In this document: piece after piece, positions 22,051 to 31,769 of the stretch | How positions within the stretch are numbered: the first letter of the stretch is position 1 | How the letters are laid out: each line of letters opens with the position of its first letter | Assembly (NCBI GenBank): GCA_022340545.1 | Contig: JAJDNV010000030.1 | Coordinates: 1 to 37,976, forward strand | Reading direction: 5' to 3' | Length of the DNA stretch: 37,976 nt | Source of the DNA: Acidobacteriota bacterium | GTDB lineage: Bacteria; Acidobacteriota; Vicinamibacteria; Fen-336 | Position numbers and translations under genes: made by a program | Notes under the pieces: model-generated | Database searches by the model: none | What the model was told of the DNA's origin: nothing | The model's input: only the letters and a program-made list of their open reading frames with translations

Positions 22051-22767
22051 GTGTTGCACGTGCCCGCGCTCACGTTGGCTGTTCTGGCGGCGGCATCGGC
22101 GCCGGGCTTGTACTTCGAGCAAACGACAATCGTGTACCAGGGCGGCGAGCCGGCGGGGCCGGGCGTTCGGACACGGGCGTGGCACGCCGGGCAGAGCATG
22201 CGCCTCGAGGCTGGTGACGCCCCGGGGGGTCCGGCGCTCGTCCTGCGCTTCGACCTCGACCGCGCCTTCCGCCTCGACCCGGCCCGCCGGGTCGTGGTCG
22301 AGCTGGACATGGACCGTCTGCGGGCGCGATCGCAGACCGACGCCGCCGTCGCCGCCGGGATGACCGGCGGAGGCGAGGAGGGCGCGGTGAGGTCGATACC
22401 GGTCGAGGGCTCGCGGACGATCGCCGGGTACGTCTGTCGGGGCTTCCGTCTCACCGGGCCCTCGATACAGATGGTGGTGTGGGTCGCGGAGACACTCCCC
22501 GTGGGGGTGGAGACCTTCGCCGCCTTCCTGGAATGGTCGGGGGCAAGCCGATCGCTGGGGGGCCTTCTCGAGGAGATCCGCGCGCTCCCCGGGTTCCCGC
22601 TCCAGACGCAGACCCGGGTCGAGGTCCAGGGCGGGGTGCGGGACACGGTCTCCACCGTGACCGCCATCCGAGTGGGGCCACAGCCGGCCGAGCTCTTCGA
22701 GGTCCCCCCAGGGTGGTCCGTCGAGGCATCGCCGGCGCTCAGCCCGGAGAACGGAGGTCCTGAATGA
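22051..22767 (+). CDS. Exported DUF4412-like protein
   Basis: The product is 238 residues, starting at GTG 22051. The first 18 residues (MLHVPALTLAVLAAASAP) are a signal peptide. The rest has strand-rich segments such as YFEQTTIVYQGG, AWHAGQSMRLEAG, VVVELDMDRL and TIAGYVCRGFRLTG, plus VVWVAETLPVGVETFAAFL; this order, with 'internal C-x-G-F/Y' and 'V-W-V-A-x-x-L-P-V', matches DUF4412-type periplasmic proteins. Function unknown. GGGGGAT lies about 7 nt before the start. TATGAT (22004-22009) upstream could serve as its -10 and would lie inside the divergent cyclase gene. It overlaps the next gene by 4 nt. Confidence 0.7.
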   Translation: MLHVPALTLAVLAAASAPGLYFEQTTIVYQGGEPAGPGVRTRAWHAGQSMRLEAGDAPGGPALVLRFDLDRAFRLDPARRVVVELDMDRLRARSQTDAAVAAGMTGGGEEGAVRSIPVEGSRTIAGYVCRGFRLTGPSIQMVVWVAETLPVGVETFAAFLEWSGASRSLGGLLEEIRALPGFPLQTQTRVEVQGGVRDTVSTVTAIRVGPQPAELFEVPPGWSVEASPALSPENGGPE

Positions 22768-23114
22768 GACTGATCCTGGCGATCGTCGGCAACGCGATTG
22801 CCCTCTGGGCCACCACGGTGGTGCCCGGCATCACGTTCACCGGCACCTGGCTCCAGCTCGCCCTGGCCGGGGCGATCTTTGGCCTGCTCAACCTGATCGT
22901 GCGGCCCCTGGCGCTGATCCTGTCGATTCCCGCCCTCATCCTGACGCTCGGGCTCTTCTACTTCGTCCTGAACGCGCTGCTGCTCTGGGGCTTCTCGCGG
23001 CTGCTGCCGGGCTACGCGGTCAGCGGCTTCTGGCCGGCCCTCGGCGGCAGCCTGGTCCTCATGGTAGTGAACTGGGTGCTCTCCGGCCTCTTCGGCAAGA
23101 CGAAGGACGACTGA
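22764..23114 (+). CDS. YvlD/phage-holin-4-2 family small membrane protein
   Basis: The product is 116 residues with four hydrophobic segments. [15 protein letters not shown] and [18 protein letters not shown] and [15 protein letters not shown] are the conserved blocks of the YvlD (Phage_holin_4_2) family, inner-membrane proteins of unknown role, sometimes linked to envelope stress. It starts at ATG 22764 in an ATGA overlap with the DUF4412-like gene. It ends with a charged tail, GKTKDD. Its stop is followed by repeat-derived DNA with a long inverted repeat before the convergent dehydrogenase gene. Confidence 0.9.
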
Positions 23115-24983: not shown

Positions 24984-25010
24984 GGAACCCCGGCCTCGCC
25001 TCGTGCGTTA
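24984..25010 (+). promoter_or_regulatory. ECF-type promoter of the sigma/anti-sigma operon
   Basis: GGAACC (24984-24989) and CGTTA (25006-25010) are 16 nt apart, the layout of ECF-group promoters (GGAAC near -35, CGTT near -10). Transcription would start about 25016, just before the GGAGG ribosome-binding site of the lipoprotein at 25033. It points to autoregulation by the sigma factor encoded in the same operon. Confidence 0.6.
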
Positions 25011-25032: not shown

Positions 25033-25416
25033 ATGAGGTTCGGCAGTCTTCTGGCGGTGATCGCGGCAATGACGTTCGGCGCCTGTTTCGTCGACATCAA
25101 GGACGTGTCGGACCCCGGTCCCGCGTTCGCGAAGGCCCGGGCCGAGGCCGCTCGCGTGGAGGGTCGCCCCGGGCCTCCCGACAGCCTGGAGATCCTCGTC
25201 TACGACCGGGGGGAAGGCCGGCTCGTGCGAGCCAGCCTCCCGATGTGGGTGGTCGAGAAGATGGATGACGAAGGGATCGACATCGACCTGGAGGACGACG
25301 CCGCGGAGCGCGTCCGATCTCACCTCAAGGTGAGCGATCTCGAGGAGGCCCCCCTCGGTCCCCTGGTCGAGGTCGACGAGGAGGACGGCGACCAGGTGCT
25401 CGTCTGGCTGAGGTAG
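25033..25416 (+). CDS. Small lipoprotein with the operon-wide C-terminal domain
   Basis: The product is 127 residues. Residues 1-18 end in a lipobox (MTFGAC; Cys18), so it should be a lipoprotein. The C-terminal 75 residues share a pattern with two later genes of the operon: SLEILVYDRGEG...VRASLPMWVVEKMDDE..., then ...GPLVEVDEEDGDQVLVWLR at the end. The shared features are an R/L-V strand, an LP-x-x-x-V helix start, an acidic turn and the closing V-x-V-W strand. I know a similar layout from the N-terminal part of LiaX/YvlB-type 'SHOCT-like' proteins, but this is only a resemblance. It has a strong GGAGG-rich site before the ATG and leads the ECF operon. Confidence 0.75.
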   Translation: MRFGSLLAVIAAMTFGACFVDIKDVSDPGPAFAKARAEAARVEGRPGPPDSLEILVYDRGEGRLVRASLPMWVVEKMDDEGIDIDLEDDAAERVRSHLKVSDLEEAPLGPLVEVDEEDGDQVLVWLR

Positions 25417-25496
25417 CCGGGCGAGCGGCGCCGTGGTCCAATGACCCGACAAAGGACGGAACGGGGCGGCCAGACGAGGAGAGGAGCCTTCGGGGC

Positions 25497-26078
25497 ATGG
25501 AGCCGTCGCAGGGGGGAGGGGCCTCCGACCGGGACCTCATGGCCCGGCTCGCGGCGGGCGACCGCGAGGCCCTCGCCCCGCTCATGGAGCGGCACTACCC
25601 TCGCCTCTACCGGATTGCCCTCTCGTACCTGCGCAACCCCGACGATGCGCTCGACACCGTCCAGGAGACGTTCGTGAAGGCCTTCCAGAACGCAAATCGG
25701 TGGGACGGCTCGGTGGAGGCGGGGCCGTGGCTGTCGCGGGTGGCCATCAATCAGTCCATCGACCGGTGGCGCCGGATTCGCCGCCGGCAGGCCACGTTCA
25801 CCCCCCTCGCCCCGGGCGATCATGAAGCCGCGCTCGCCGACGGCGCCCTCGACCCGGACGCTCGCGTCCACGGGCGAGAGCTGCGTGACCGCCTCGCGAC
25901 CGCGCTCGGCCGCCTGCCCGAGCGACAAAGGGCGGTGGTGATCCTGCGCCACTACCAGGAGATGACCCTCGAGGAGATCGCCGACGCGCTCGGGATGAAG
26001 CTGGGGACCGTCAAGAGCAGCCTCCATCGCGCGCTCGGTCGCCTGCGCACGGGGCTCCAGAGAGGGCTCGAGTCATGA
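25497..26078 (+). CDS. ECF RNA polymerase sigma factor
   Basis: The product is 193 residues. Region 2 is LAPLMERHYPRLYRIALSYL, DDALDTVQETFVKAFQN and GPWLSRVAINQSIDRWRRIR. Region 4 is LGRLPERQRAVVILRHYQE, MTLEEIADALGMKLGTVKSS, a standard sigma-70 HTH. The linker of about 40 residues is typical. It is an ECF sigma of the RpoE-like type, held by the anti-sigma protein encoded next. ATG 25497 has GGAG about 12 nt upstream; the in-frame ATG at 25539 is an alternative. Its stop overlaps the anti-sigma ATG by 4 nt, as usual for such pairs. A promoter of the type it may recognise lies upstream of the operon. Confidence 0.93.
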   Translation: MEPSQGGGASDRDLMARLAAGDREALAPLMERHYPRLYRIALSYLRNPDDALDTVQETFVKAFQNANRWDGSVEAGPWLSRVAINQSIDRWRRIRRRQATFTPLAPGDHEAALADGALDPDARVHGRELRDRLATALGRLPERQRAVVILRHYQEMTLEEIADALGMKLGTVKSSLHRALGRLRTGLQRGLES

Positions 26079-26848
26079 TCCTGGCCCACCTGCTTCTGCG
26101 CCGGCGTGTGGCCCTGCTCGCCGCGGGCGTCCTCGACGGGCGCGAGCGTGACGAGATGCGAGCCCACGTGGACTCGTGTTCCCGGTGTCGTCGGGAGTAT
26201 GACGAGCTCCGGGCCGTCGTCGGTGCCCTCGAAGCCGACCCCCTCCGCTCGGCGGAGCCGGAGATCCCGGTGTCGGTCCTGATCGACCGAGTTGAGCAAC
26301 GGCTCGATCGCGTGGCCACCTCGAGGCCGAAGCGAGCGCACGGGTGGAGGGTGGCCCTGCCCGCCGCGGCCGCGGCCGTGTTGGCCTTTGTCCTTCTCGG
26401 CACGGAGCTGCTCCCGCGGCGGGGGCCGGAGCCGGTGGCGCCCACGCCGGTCCCGGCGGCGGCGTTGCCCTCCGAGGTCCTCGACCGCCTCGAGCGGAAT
26501 CTGGCGCGGGAGCAGGCCGCGCGCTACCTGAGCGAGGCCCAGGACGTCCTGCTGGCGGTCTCGGCTACGGAGGCGGACTGCCTGCGGGAAGAGGACCGGC
26601 TGGACGTCGGCGAAGCCCCCGATCGAAGCCGGCAGCTGCTCGCCCGGCGGGCGCTGCTCGTCGAGGGTCGCCCCGAGGCGGTGGCGAGCGCGCAGGCGGT
26701 CCTCGACGACGTTGAGCTGGCGCTGCGGGAGGTCGCGGACCTGCCCTCGTGTGTCCGGCGTCGCGACGTGGAGCGGCTGCGTCAGGACATCGACCGGCGC
26801 CAGCTGCACATGCGGATCCGCCTCATGACGAGGGAGCTCGAGGGATGA
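26075..26848 (+). CDS. Transmembrane anti-sigma factor with zinc-finger (zf-HC2) domain
   Basis: The product is 257 residues. The cytoplasmic N-terminus has the zinc-binding anti-sigma signature AHVDSCSRCRREY (H-x3-C-x2-C, about 31-38), with His5 upstream. A single membrane segment, VALPAAAAAVLAFVLLGTEL (about 92-111), follows. The C-terminal periplasmic part is helical and Leu/Arg-rich (LPSEVLDRLERNLAREQAAR, VADLPSCVRRRDVERLRQDI), and contains two cysteines that might form a disulfide (about 168 and 229). It should sequester the sigma factor and release it when the periplasmic part senses a signal. It overlaps both neighbours by 4 nt. Confidence 0.88.
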   Translation: MILAHLLLRRRVALLAAGVLDGRERDEMRAHVDSCSRCRREYDELRAVVGALEADPLRSAEPEIPVSVLIDRVEQRLDRVATSRPKRAHGWRVALPAAAAAVLAFVLLGTELLPRRGPEPVAPTPVPAAALPSEVLDRLERNLAREQAARYLSEAQDVLLAVSATEADCLREEDRLDVGEAPDRSRQLLARRALLVEGRPEAVASAQAVLDDVELALREVADLPSCVRRRDVERLRQDIDRRQLHMRIRLMTRELEG

Positions 26849-27687
26849 GGACCCCGACAGTGGCGCTCACCGCGATGGCGCTCCTCGTCGCCCCGGCCGC
26901 GGGCTGGGCGCAGGTGGACGCCCAGACGCTCCGCAACGCCAAGACCCTGTTCTTCGACCGGCAGTATGCCGAGGCGCGCGCCGCCTGGCAGGAGGTCCGC
27001 GAGGCGGGTGACGGTCGGGAGACGGGGAGCGCCCTCTACTGGATCGCGCGCTGCAGCGAGAAGCTGGGGGAGGATGACCGGGCCCTGGAGGAGTACGGCC
27101 AGTACCTCGACTCCCGCCCCTCCGACCGCACGCTTCGCGAGGAGGCGAAGACCAGCCGGGTCGCCCTGGCCGCGAAGCTCTACAAGTCCGGCGAACCACG
27201 CCAACTCGACGTCATGCTCGGGGCTCTCCACGACCCGAGCCGGACCGTCCGCTACTTCGCGGCACTCCAGATGGCCTCGCTGGGCCCCGCAGTCGGGCAC
27301 CCCGCGGTGCCCGTGCTCCAGGAGATCCTCGAGAAGGAGACGGACGAGGATCTCGTGGAGCGGGCCAAGCTGGCGCTCCTCCGGCTCGATCGCAAGGCCC
27401 TGGCCGAGGCGAGCCCGCCCCCGGCTCGACGGGGCGGGGGTTCGGCCACGTGGATCCGCGTGCGGGTCTGGGAAAAGGGAGCGAGCAAGCCGCAGCTCTC
27501 CTTGAACTTGCCCGTTTTTCTGGCCGATATGGTGTTCAAGAGCCTCCCCGACGAGACGCGGGACGATCTGCGGAAGGAAGGCTTCGACGCCCAGAGCTTC
27601 TGGGAACGCCTGAAGAGGTCAGGGCCGACCGACATCCTCACCGTGGAGGGGAAGGACGGGGGCCGCATCCAGGTCTGGATCGAGTAG
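26845..27687 (+). CDS. Exported TPR/HEAT-like protein with the operon-wide C-terminal domain
   Basis: The product is 280 residues, starting in an ATGA overlap with the anti-sigma gene. Residues 1-22 are a signal peptide (ending AGWA). Residues about 24-100 look like TPRs (LYWIARCSEKLGEDDRALEE), and about 115-190 like HEAT repeats (SRTVRYFAALQMASLG, VPVLQEILEKETDEDLVERA). The last 75 residues match the lipoprotein of 25033 and the product of 27701: WIRVRVWEKGASKPQLSLNL, then LPVFLADMVFKSLPDE, and the end ILTVEGKDGGRIQVWIE. Helical repeats plus the shared domain suggest a protein-interaction platform in the periplasm. Function is unknown. The following gene starts 13 nt after its stop. Confidence 0.8.
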   Translation: MRTPTVALTAMALLVAPAAGWAQVDAQTLRNAKTLFFDRQYAEARAAWQEVREAGDGRETGSALYWIARCSEKLGEDDRALEEYGQYLDSRPSDRTLREEAKTSRVALAAKLYKSGEPRQLDVMLGALHDPSRTVRYFAALQMASLGPAVGHPAVPVLQEILEKETDEDLVERAKLALLRLDRKALAEASPPPARRGGGSATWIRVRVWEKGASKPQLSLNLPVFLADMVFKSLPDETRDDLRKEGFDAQSFWERLKRSGPTDILTVEGKDGGRIQVWIE

Positions 27688-27700
27688 GAGGAGAAACCTG

Positions 27701-28099
27701 ATGAAGACGCTGACGCTAACGCTCGTGCTGGCTCTCGCCGGCCTGGCCACTCCCTCCGCCGCCGGTAGCTCTGCAGACGAAGACCTCGCGGTCGTGAAGA
27801 AGGCGACGGCCTCGGGCAACGGCCAGGCGGTGGCCGCGGAGGCTCCGCCCCGCTCGAGTGCGGATGAGCCCGAGTGGTTCCGTGTGCGGATCGTCGAGAA
27901 AGGGAAGAAGAAGGCCACGGTGAAGGTCAACCTCCCCCTCGCCCTCGTCCACGCACTCGGCGACGATGTGCCCATTCCCGGCTGCGGCGGACGCGACCGG
28001 CATCTCACGATCGGCGAGGTGTTGCGGTCTCTCGACACCGGCGAGAGCCTCGTGGAGATCGAGGACGACGACGCCACGGTCCGGGTCTGGGTCGAGTAG
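27701..28099 (+). CDS. Small exported protein consisting mainly of the operon-wide domain
   Basis: The product is 132 residues: a signal peptide (MKTLTLTLVLALAGLATPSAAG), a linker of about 30 residues, and the shared domain: WFRVRIVEKGKKKATVKVNL, LPLALVHALGDDVPIPGCGG, LTIGEVLRSLDTGE and ESLVEIEDDDATVRVWVE. The LTIGEVLRSL helix before the last strand is the part that most recalls LiaX/YvlB-type domains. The start has a strong AGGAGGAG about 8 nt upstream. It is the last gene of the ECF operon and the simplest carrier of the shared domain. Confidence 0.8.
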   Translation: MKTLTLTLVLALAGLATPSAAGSSADEDLAVVKKATASGNGQAVAAEAPPRSSADEPEWFRVRIVEKGKKKATVKVNLPLALVHALGDDVPIPGCGGRDRHLTIGEVLRSLDTGESLVEIEDDDATVRVWVE

Positions 28100-28283: not shown

Positions 28284-28718
28284 ATGAAGATTCGAGCACT
28301 CGTCCCCACGCTCGCTGTCGCCGCGGCGCTCGTCGCCCCGTCGTCACTTCTCGCCGAGCCTGATCAGCACCGCTCCCGCGACGGTGGTCGTGGGCCGGGC
28401 TACGATCGGTCGTCACCCGGCCACCGCGACTCCTATCGTTCCGTGGGCCGGAGCGACAGAAGCGCGTACCAGCGGGGGTACCCGCGCGTGTACCGCCATC
28501 GCCGGTACACCCCGCCACCCCGCCGCTACCTGCTCCCGTCCCCGCGGGCGTACCGCTACCGGCCGTACTCCCGCCCCTACTACGGGTATCGGCCGGTTCC
28601 CCCGGCGTACTACCCGCCGCGCGCACCCTACGGCTACCCGGTCCCGCTCCGCCGTGGCGGTGTCCACGGCTCGGTCTCGGTCGGGCTGCCTTTCCTCGGC
28701 GTCAGCCTGCACTTCTGA
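28284..28718 (+). CDS. Secreted Tyr/Arg/Pro-rich low-complexity protein
   Basis: The product is 144 residues. Residues 1-24 are a signal peptide (ending SSLLAEP). The middle 95 residues are rich in Arg, Tyr and Pro (for example RYTPPPRRYLLPSPRAYRYR, RPYYGYRPVPPAYYPP), with no globular pattern. The end, SVSVGLPFLGVSLHF, is strand-like and finishes with Phe, recalling beta-barrel C-termini, but there are too few strands for a barrel. The protein is highly basic and might bind an anionic polymer; this is a guess. Similar secreted basic Tyr/Pro-rich proteins occur in many Gram-negative genomes without known function. ATG 28284 has GGGAGG 8 nt upstream and a sigma-54-type promoter ahead. Confidence 0.75.
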   Translation: MKIRALVPTLAVAAALVAPSSLLAEPDQHRSRDGGRGPGYDRSSPGHRDSYRSVGRSDRSAYQRGYPRVYRHRRYTPPPRRYLLPSPRAYRYRPYSRPYYGYRPVPPAYYPPRAPYGYPVPLRRGGVHGSVSVGLPFLGVSLHF

Positions 28719-28847: not shown

Positions 28848-31094
28848 ATGGCCCTGGAAATCCGGCTGAGCCGCGAGATGCGGCTCGTCGACGTCACGAT
28901 GATCGGCGTCGGGGCCATGATCGGCGCCGGGATCTTCGTTCTCACCGGCATCGCCGCCGGGGTCGCCGGCCCCGCACTCCTCGTGGTCTTCGGCCTCAAC
29001 GGCCTCGTGGCCCTGCTCAGCGCCGCCGCCTACGCCGAGCTCGGCGGGGCCATCCACGGCGCCGGGGGCGGCTACCTCTGGATCAAGCGGTCGCTCCCCG
29101 ACCCGAGCGGGTTTCTGGCCGGATGGATGGACTGGTTCGCCCACGCCGTGGCCTGCTCGCTCTACGCGCTCGGGTTCGGCGCGTACTTCGGAGAGGTGCT
29201 CGCCCTCATCGGCGCCCCGGAGATCCGCCCTCCCCTGGCTCCGCTCGAGATCTGGCTGGCGGTGGGCGCCTGCGCCCTCTTCTCCTACATCAACTACCGC
29301 GGGGCTTCGGAGACGGGGAAGGCCGGAAACGTGGTGACCATCGGGAAGGTGGTGATCATCGGCGTGTTCGTGGCGGCGGGCCTCTGGACCATGGGGTTGC
29401 GCGGGGAGTGGGAATCCTCCTTCACCCCGTTCATGACCCACGGATGGACCGGTGTCTTCGCCGCCATGGGCCTCACGTTCATCGCCTTCGAAGGCTACGA
29501 GATCATCGCCCAGACCAGCGAGGAGGTGGAGAACCCCAAGCGCAACGTGCCGCAGGCGGTCTTCCTCTCCTTGTTCATCGTCGTGCCCATCTACCTGCTG
29601 GTGGCCTTCGTCGCGATCGGCGCGGTGACCCCGCCGCCGGGCACCGAGGTCACCCAGTACCTGGGAGAGCAGAAGGAGATCGCACTCGTCAGGGCGGCGG
29701 AGCAGTTCTTTCGCGGCGGGGCTCTCGTCATCCTGGTCGGTGGACTCCTCTCGACCCTCTCCGCGCTCAACGCCACCATCTACTCCTCCTCGCGGGTGGC
29801 CTTCGCGATGGCGCGGGACGCGAGCCTCCCCCAGCTCGTCGCGCGCGTCCACCGCGAGCGCGCCACGCCCCACTTCGCGATCCTCTTCTCGACGGTGCTG
29901 GTCATTGGAATGGCGGTGGCGCTGCCAATCGAGGACGTGGCGGCCGCGGCCGGCGTAATGTTCCTTCTTCTCTTCGGGGGCGTGAACGTCGCCCTCATCC
30001 GGCTCCGACGCCTGCATCCGGAGCTCGACCGCGGCTTCAAGGTCCCCTTCGTACCGCTCACCCCGATCCTCGCGATCGTGGCCATGCTGCTCCTCGCCGG
30101 GTTCATGCTCGTCGACTATCCCCTGGCCGGCATCGCGGCCGGGGGCTGGATCGCCGCCGGCTGTGCCTTCTACTACGCATACAGCCGCAAGCGCGAGACC
30201 GCCTTCGGGGAGCGCGTGACCTGGATGGAGCGCATCGAGCGCCGGGAGTACCGGGTCCTCGTCGCGATCTCGTCCCCTCGGACGATGGAGTCGCTCATGG
30301 AGAGCGCGATCGCCATCGCTCGCCGTCACGACGGGGAGCTCGTCGTGGTGACGGTCGCCGAGGTCCCGGAAGGAGAGACGCTCTTCTCGGGCCGGCGCCG
30401 GGTCCGGGAGCTCGAGCCCGTCCTCGAGAGCGCGGTGCGATACGCCGAGGAGCGGGGCGTGGCCGCCCAGCCGGTGATCAAGATCGCGCGCCGCATCGGG
30501 CACGGGCTCACCCAGACCGCCCGCGAGGAGGGCTGCAACTTCCTCATCATCGGCCAGCCCTCCACAGGCTCCTTCGTCGAGCGCCTCGTCGCCTCGATCG
30601 TCGAGCGCGTGTTGCAGGACGCGCCCTGCCACGTCGCGGTCGTCTACGGGGCCATCGACAAGGAGCGGGTGAATCACATCGTGGTTCCGGTGACCAAGGG
30701 CGGCAACTCCAAGCTCGCGGCCGAGCTCGCGGCCCCCTTCTCCGACTGGTTCAGGGCGCCCATCCGCGCGCTCACCGTCATCGAGCGGGAGCGGGCGGGC
30801 GACGGCGGGGAAGCGCACGCGGCCGAGGCCCGCGAGACCCTCCGCGCGGCCGGGAGCGTGGTTCAGCTCGACGTGCTCCTGCGGGGCGAGATCGCGAGCG
30901 GCCTGCTCCGCAACCTCAAGCGCGGAGAGCTGGTCCTGATCGGCGCCCCCAGCTCCGGCCCCGTCGTTCCCCTGTTCGGGGAGACGATTCCCGCGCTCAT
31001 CGCCAGGCGGGGGCGCAACTCGGTGGTGGTCGTGCGGCACGTGGAGGAGCTGCGCGCGCGGCGTTTCGAGCGGTCGTTCTTCGCCAGGAGCTGA
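28848..31094 (+). CDS. APC-superfamily amino acid permease fused to C-terminal Usp domains
   Basis: The product is 748 residues. Residues about 1-455 are an APC-type permease: VTMIGVGAMIGAGIFVLTG is the conserved helix 1 motif, AYAELGGAIHGAGGGYLWIK is helix 2-3, and FIAFEGYEIIAQTSEEVENP is the conserved helix 6 region. Residues about 465-745 are cytoplasmic universal stress protein-like: YRVLVAISSPRTMESLMESA, LIIGQPSTGSF (G-x2-G-x-S/T pattern), then a second copy from about 605 (HIVVPVTKGGNSKLAAELAA, ELVLIGAPSSG). Such fusions transport amino acids or polyamines under Usp control; the substrate is unknown. It is followed after 6 nt by the MscS-helix gene. Confidence 0.88.
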   Translation: MALEIRLSREMRLVDVTMIGVGAMIGAGIFVLTGIAAGVAGPALLVVFGLNGLVALLSAAAYAELGGAIHGAGGGYLWIKRSLPDPSGFLAGWMDWFAHAVACSLYALGFGAYFGEVLALIGAPEIRPPLAPLEIWLAVGACALFSYINYRGASETGKAGNVVTIGKVVIIGVFVAAGLWTMGLRGEWESSFTPFMTHGWTGVFAAMGLTFIAFEGYEIIAQTSEEVENPKRNVPQAVFLSLFIVVPIYLLVAFVAIGAVTPPPGTEVTQYLGEQKEIALVRAAEQFFRGGALVILVGGLLSTLSALNATIYSSSRVAFAMARDASLPQLVARVHRERATPHFAILFSTVLVIGMAVALPIEDVAAAAGVMFLLLFGGVNVALIRLRRLHPELDRGFKVPFVPLTPILAIVAMLLLAGFMLVDYPLAGIAAGGWIAAGCAFYYAYSRKRETAFGERVTWMERIERREYRVLVAISSPRTMESLMESAIAIARRHDGELVVVTVAEVPEGETLFSGRRRVRELEPVLESAVRYAEERGVAAQPVIKIARRIGHGLTQTAREEGCNFLIIGQPSTGSFVERLVASIVERVLQDAPCHVAVVYGAIDKERVNHIVVPVTKGGNSKLAAELAAPFSDWFRAPIRALTVIERERAGDGGEAHAAEARETLRAAGSVVQLDVLLRGEIASGLLRNLKRGELVLIGAPSSGPVVPLFGETIPALIARRGRNSVVVVRHVEELRARRFERSFFARS

Positions 31095-31100
31095 TGCAGC

Positions 31101-31769
31101 ATGCCGACACCTGATACGGGACCGTTCGCCGAGTTCGTCCAGCGGCTCATCGGCTACGCGCCGACCCTGACCGCCGGCCTGCTGGTGCTGCTCCTGGGCG
31201 TGGTGGTCGGGTGGCTCGCGAAGAAGGCAGTCGTTCGCGTTTTGATCTGGCTTCGCCTCGATCGTCTCGGGGGCAACGCGTCGTGGCGCGCGGCACTCGG
31301 CAAGGGTGACGTGCGGGCGGCTTTCTACGACCTCGCCGGCAACGCGGTGTTCCTCCTCCTGGTGCTCGTGTTCCTCGACAACTCGCTGGAGATCTGGGGC
31401 CTGGTCGTGCTGTCGCGGATGATCGAGGGACTCATCGTCTACCTTCCCAACCTGGCCCTGGTTGCGCTGATCTTCGGCGGCGGGGTGTTCCTGGCCAACA
31501 CCCTGGCCGGGGCCATCGAGAACACCCTGGAGGAGGAGGGGGCGCCCCGCCCCCGGCTGGTGGCGAAGGGCTTCAAGGCCGCGGCCCTGGGGATGGTCGG
31601 GGCTTTGGCCCTCTGGCAGCTCAACTTCGCTCGGGAGATCGTCCTCGCGGCATTCCTCATCGGCTTCGGTGCCCTCGGGATCGCCTTCGCCATCGCCGTT
31701 GGGCTTGGATCGGCGAAGGCCATCCAGAAAGGCTGGGACGCGCTCTTCGACAAGAACCGGCGCAAGTAG
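31101..31769 (+). CDS. MscS TM-helix family membrane protein lacking the pore/beta domain
   Basis: The product is 222 residues with about five hydrophobic helices. TLTAGLLVLLLGVVVGWLAK and VYLPNLALVALIFGGGVFLA are two copies of the conserved TM helix (PF05552-type) found in MscS-like proteins, each followed by a charged segment (NTLAGAIENTLEEEG). FLIGFGALGIAFAIAVGLGS is the last helix. There is no MscS pore helix and beta domain, so it is not a complete channel. Role unknown, possibly in tension sensing or as a partner. It starts 6 nt after the permease-Usp stop, so is likely co-transcribed. Confidence 0.82.
   Translation: MPTPDTGPFAEFVQRLIGYAPTLTAGLLVLLLGVVVGWLAKKAVVRVLIWLRLDRLGGNASWRAALGKGDVRAAFYDLAGNAVFLLLVLVFLDNSLEIWGLVVLSRMIEGLIVYLPNLALVALIFGGGVFLANTLAGAIENTLEEEGAPRPRLVAKGFKAAALGMVGALALWQLNFAREIVLAAFLIGFGALGIAFAIAVGLGSAKAIQKGWDALFDKNRRK

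Follow-up and report, generated by a model that had tools for sequence, protein, structure and literature searches.

Proteins with SHOCT-like and DUF4097 domains are described, in passages of a survey (PMC11237479) and of papers on LiaX (PMC10269926) and YvlB (PMC9239133), as partners of membrane stress systems. The yvlABCD operon of B. subtilis belongs to the core regulon of sigma-W (PMC3498285), an extracytoplasmic function (ECF) sigma factor. Here we describe an operon of an Acidobacteriota bacterium (Vicinamibacteria, Fen-336; assembly GCA_022340545.1) that has some overlap with these systems. It lies on contig JAJDNV010000030.1, whose full 37,976 nt were analyzed (“the window” below), and encodes a lipoprotein, an ECF sigma factor, a membrane anti-sigma factor, an exported protein with TPR and HEAT repeats (here the TPR/HEAT protein), and a small exported protein. 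The lipoprotein and the two other exported proteins have a C-terminal domain of ~80 residues in common. The evidence is sequence-based: the operon itself, the shared domain, its kinship to SHOCT-like proteins, a conserved promoter, and the finding that this promoter precedes every domain locus detected in the genome. Taken together, it suggests that this is probably an autoregulated envelope-signaling operon built on an ECF sigma factor and a ZAS anti-sigma factor, with the domain proteins as output first and feedback second.

The shared C-terminal domain

The domain was recognized by profile comparison (hhalign). With profiles of orthologs from 14 genomes of the family (source genome included), the TPR/HEAT and small proteins are paired with 98.6% probability (score 80.5; best shuffled 12.4), the small protein and the lipoprotein with 85.7% (score 37.0; best shuffled 17.2), and the TPR/HEAT protein and the lipoprotein with 49.6% (score 28.2; best shuffled 10.8), the shuffled value in each case being the best of 54-60 column-shuffled nulls. 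With phylum-wide alignments, which include distant Acidobacteriota, the same three pairs give 99.6% (score 119.5), 97.4% (61.5), and 96.1% (50.9), with null maxima of 12-15. The initial annotation had read a single C-terminal pattern in all three proteins, and this is borne out, the scores standing above the shuffled nulls.

AlphaFold2 models were made independently for the TPR/HEAT protein (12 sequences) and the lipoprotein (10 sequences), and the structural comparison is between these two. Residues 203-279 of the former and 51-126 of the latter are predicted to have the same topology, E-E-H-H-H-E-E (E, strand; H, helix), in keeping with the earlier expectation that the C-termini would agree in predicted structure. 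The pLDDT is 71-78 in the TPR/HEAT domain and mostly 81-93 in the lipoprotein domain, where a loop at about residues 80-100 is weak; ahead of the shared domain, the lipoprotein has an extra N-terminal strand and helix.

The likeness might instead be fortuitous, a product of short strands and acidic runs, and the low identity of the C-termini (16-29% between aligned profile columns) would fit with this. Such an origin seems highly improbable: the phylum-wide scores of 50-120 compare with null maxima of 12-15, the predicted topology is identical in the two models, tblastn matches the TPR/HEAT C-terminus and the small protein at E ~1e-5, and both shuffled and reversed nulls reject it. A known Pfam or NCBIfam domain can be ruled out as well, since neither collection has a match in any of the three C-termini; with no model covering it, the domain was rightly called uncharacterized.

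It does have a relative. Acidobacteriota encode a few cytoplasmic proteins of the SHOCT-like_DUF2089-C family (PF22746, not found in the source genome). What follows the SHOCT-like helices in these proteins, their C-terminal half, shows homology to the domain exported here: hhalign pairs it with the TPR/HEAT and small versions at 95.9-96.0% probability (score 49; null maxima 13-17), and with the tandem copies described below at 94.9% (first) and 64% (second). The lipoprotein version alone gave 0.7% in this comparison, which is not significant. The only relative of the SHOCT-like protein in the plasmid records, full-length and 49% identical, is found in an Embleya replicon; the SHOCT-like form is therefore not confined to Acidobacteriota.

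Promoter motif and predicted regulon

Copies of the domain were detected at only two loci in the source genome, the operon and a locus on contig C379 (L096:4945-6024). The latter has two neighboring genes for exported proteins; in both products the domain occurs twice in tandem and there is no scaffold part. The second product is 172 aa long, and its first copy of the domain is very divergent. The pair is unlinked to the operon and has no sigma gene nearby. Nine of the 14 family genomes retain both genes or at least the first of them; the plasmid records yielded no tandem-domain relative.

Upstream of the first gene of the operon, all 12 family genomes that have it carry GGAAC-N16-(G/T)CGT(T/A)A, a putative promoter whose sequence has the textbook ECF shape. 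The exact form GGAAC-N16-GCGTTA has a single match in the 5.04-Mb draft genome, the site given in Table 1, and the relaxed form RGAACC-N16-CGTWA has two, before the operon and ~50 nt before the C379 pair, with none for its reversed control. The same class of motif stands upstream of the tandem-domain pair in 8 of the 9 family genomes having it; the ninth (G008) has a tandem-domain gene and neither the motif nor an operon ortholog. Farther afield, 16 of 22 distant operons and 7 of 12 tandem-domain loci (two of these loci from the family) have [ACG]AACC-N15-17-CGT[AT] upstream, compared with 2.6% of background windows. Its presence before the operon itself, in 12/12 family and 16/22 distant cases, points to autoregulation through a GGAAC...CGT-type promoter. 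In the source genome the predicted regulon would be very small, comprising that one domain alone.

Other candidate members were considered. In three family genomes the same ECF promoter lies ~60 nt upstream of a gene for a MacB-like permease, presumably of the ADOP type (L155 and L170, in G010:C229 and G001:C564; L169, in G004:C2); it is exact in G010 and G001, with one mismatch in G004. The closest permease of the source genome (45% identity) has no clear motif in the stretches scored and was set aside as a regulon member here. The remaining exact-pattern matches, which are inside coding regions or before unrelated genes, were also rejected.

Operon organization and conservation

All five open reading frames are where the initial annotation had placed them (Table 1), and the reading as one operon is supported; Pfam matches identify the second product as an ECF sigma factor and the third as a zf-HC2 anti-sigma factor. 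The sigma factor matches only Sigma70_r2 and Sigma70_r4_2; the anti-sigma factor matches zf-HC2 above the cut-off and has the ZAS motif HVDSCSRC at residue 31, with H-x3-C-x2-C in 12/12 orthologs. Its single clear transmembrane (TM)-like segment, at ~95-113 (near 90-115 across orthologs), is followed by a long, conserved C-terminal region (residues ~114-257) predicted to be extracytoplasmic. The TPR and HEAT matches of the fourth protein are confined to its N-terminal two thirds. All three domain proteins are predicted to carry a signal peptide or lipobox; the Cys closing the lipoprotein signal peptide is present in all orthologs, and the small protein has a short segment between its signal peptide and the domain.

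Table 1. Features of the operon and neighboring genes (positions in the window)
Feature	Position	Strand	Remarks
ECF-type promoter GGAACCCCGGCCTCGCCTCGTGCGTTA (GGAAC-N16-GCGTTA)	24984..25010	+	motif and spacing kept in 12/12 family genomes
Lipoprotein, 127 aa	25033..25416	+	Cys18 invariant; C-terminal domain residues ~51-127
ECF sigma factor, 193 aa	25497..26078	+	Pfam PF04542 and PF08281 (regions 2 and 4)
Membrane anti-sigma factor, 257 aa	26075..26848	+	zf-HC2/ZAS domain, one TM-like segment
Exported TPR/HEAT protein, 280 aa	26845..27687	+	helices 26-187; shared domain ~202-280
Small exported protein, 132 aa	27701..28099	+	signal peptide, DDLxVVKxA segment, shared domain ~56-132
DUF4412-matching exported protein	22051..22767		adjoins phage-holin-type gene
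Phage_holin_4_2 protein	22764..23114		PF04020; four TM segments
Small exported protein, Arg/Tyr/Pro-rich	28284..28718		no Pfam match
Amino acid permease	28848..31094		fused to universal stress protein domains
Mechanosensitive-channel-type membrane protein	31101..31769		directly after the permease fusion

The sigma factor is found in 12 of the 14 family genomes at 60-100% identity (60-79% in the 11 genomes other than the source); the two without an ortholog are G006 (68% complete) and G008 (98% complete). Eleven of the 12 operons, including that of the source genome, have the complete five-gene order, and in the twelfth the contig stops inside the anti-sigma gene, the third of the five. The co-conservation proposed for these genes thus holds in every complete family operon, as do the 4-nt (ATGA) overlaps between the sigma and anti-sigma genes and between the anti-sigma and TPR/HEAT genes (11/11). 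Across the phylum sample, the domain is present in 110 of 297 Acidobacteriota genomes. Forty loci were fetched from this sample, mostly high-scoring rather than random, and one more (L060) from another scan; in ~20 of the loci, from distant Acidobacteriota families, a sigma factor, an anti-sigma factor, and a TPR/HEAT protein with the domain at its C-terminus occur together, often with the small protein next. Three distant operons (L098, L101, and L103) have the lipoprotein as their first gene.

The LiaZ protein of enterococci, once called YvlD, carries the annotation of a phage holin family protein (PMC10269926). The Phage_holin_4_2 gene of the window lies ~2 kb upstream of the operon, a position kept in most family genomes, with genes for an isocitrate/isopropylmalate-type dehydrogenase and a LOG-family protein between them. 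Within the family its synteny holds; near the distant operons no such gene was found, and it was rejected as a linked LiaZ-like part. Just past the operon, the nearest relative, L039, matches the Arg/Tyr/Pro-rich protein only at the C-terminus of the latter.

Proposed function and relation to known systems

The initial annotation had the domain proteins monitoring the envelope. All domain loci that were detected in the source genome sit downstream of one ECF-type promoter motif, so these proteins would be output at least as much as sensor, and monitoring as the main role is not upheld. In the arrangement we propose, the one-TM anti-sigma factor would at rest keep the sigma factor bound by means of a cytoplasmic ZAS domain that binds zinc. 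A disturbance of the envelope, sensed by the anti-sigma factor itself in its conserved extracytoplasmic region or by a domain protein attached to that factor, would free the sigma factor to drive the GGAAC-N16-CGTWA promoters of its own operon and of the unlinked tandem-domain pair. The envelope would then fill with the domain in three forms (anchored to lipid, borne on helical repeats, and free), which may bind a damaged or foreign envelope component; as their levels rise, they may also help the anti-sigma factor re-sequester sigma. Export, topology, and action in the envelope are all predicted properties here.

Two other explanations of the exported proteins deserve consideration. The domain proteins, and the TPR/HEAT protein in particular, might be RseB-like co-regulators that bind the extracytoplasmic part of the anti-sigma factor and set the threshold for sigma release, which is close to the original sensing idea. 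In its favor, the anti-sigma factor has a long conserved region predicted to be extracytoplasmic, each of the 11 complete family operons has the TPR/HEAT gene translationally coupled to the anti-sigma gene, no other extra gene is as constant in the distant operons, and sigma systems often induce their own regulators; but the same promoter motif precedes a tandem-domain pair that has no sigma gene nearby, and output explains both loci. We consider a co-regulatory role unlikely as the primary one. Less probable still is that these are structural or assembly factors (a BamD/YfiO-like TPR scaffold with accessory domains) that by chance lie in a sigma operon, the domain being a ligand-free contact module. 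BamD is indeed the first of the PDB fold matches of the TPR/HEAT model, and a partner protein is lipid-anchored; however, the best matches are generic helical repeats that cover just that part of the model, none reaches E <= 0.001, the sequence match to YfiO is negligible, and the tandem-domain proteins have no scaffold to bring.

Several observations weigh against the autoregulated signaling operon with domain proteins as its output. The domain has no known ligand, catalytic residue, or solved-structure relative: sequence searches for solved-structure relatives gave chance-level matches only, and the lipoprotein model has no fold relative among solved structures. The R in RGAACC was set post hoc, after the C379 site had been seen, so that independent support for the motif comes from the 8 of 9 tandem pairs and from the enrichment at distant operons and tandem-domain loci. 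Across the family, a laxer V-pattern gives 43 matches, a modest excess over the ~30 of its reversed control. The genome has ~20 sigma-70-type matches, and recognition of the promoter by the operon's own sigma factor is something we infer. In two family genomes a very similar promoter, one of the laxer matches, precedes the gene of an ECF paralog ~34% identical (G012:C217:23580-23606 and G011:C3:45585-45611), which suggests possible cross-talk, with overlapping promoter specificity among ECF paralogs.

With these reservations, a signaling operon whose domain proteins are primarily output remains our preferred interpretation. A stronger version can be entertained only tentatively, as possible rather than probable: a closed loop in which one sigma factor induces every exported copy of the domain (lipid-anchored, helical-repeat-borne, free, and tandem), and in which the copies would not only bind the envelope stressor but also tune the anti-sigma factor. 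The exported domain would then be an extracytoplasmic counterpart of the one that SHOCT-like proteins have inside the cell.

The operon was initially said to recall LiaX/YvlB-type stress proteins. In part this stands, given the envelope-stress setting and the profile match that relates its domain to the SHOCT-associated C-terminal region. YvlB and LiaX combine a SHOCT-like domain with a DUF4097 “Toastrack” and are under sigma-W or LiaFSR, whereas the three domain proteins have no Pfam match to the SHOCT-like motif (PF22746) or DUF4097, and the operon includes no LiaFSR or PspC partner (the rest of the genome was not searched for LiaFSR). By domain content, they are therefore not LiaX/YvlB members. 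Nor do they have the SHOCT-like helix pair or the cytoplasmic location of the SHOCT-like relatives, which begin with SHOCT helices and lack a signal peptide. The regulator had been thought a point of difference from LiaX/YvlB; since yvlABCD is itself in the sigma-W regulon (PMC3498285), ECF control is a similarity instead.

In phage shock protein (PSP)/Toastrack systems, passages of one survey (PMC11237479) describe SHOCT-like and DUF2089-type proteins near membrane-stress genes, some with a sigma factor in the operon, and their SHOCT partner domains are predicted there to be intracellular, unlike the exported domain of this operon. Acidobacteri* does not occur in the main text of that survey, and in these passages “heat” is not tied to such an operon. 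A literature search likewise found no paper describing this kind of operon or domain, many subscription papers being outside its reach.

The domain, previously undescribed, is present in over a third of the Acidobacteriota genomes sampled. It now has a link to the poorly understood SHOCT/LiaX/YvlB sphere, a candidate regulator and promoter sequence, and a predicted regulon of small size. How Acidobacteriota, which are abundant in soil, respond to envelope stress has, to our knowledge, been little studied.

The operon shares with the sigma-W/RsiW and sigma-E/RseA-RseB systems an ECF sigma factor, a one-TM anti-sigma factor, and, on the evidence of its sequence, autoregulation. Its promoter, [G/T][G/A]AACC-N16-CGTWA, resembles the sigma-W consensus TGAAAC-N16-CGTA. 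It differs from both systems in its very small predicted regulon of one-domain proteins and in having no RseB homolog in the operon (no operon protein has a MucB/RseB Pfam match). ECF/anti-sigma envelope operons are thus a known kind; what is new in this one is the domain, the four arrangements in which it is exported, and a regulon predicted in the source genome to consist of that domain alone.

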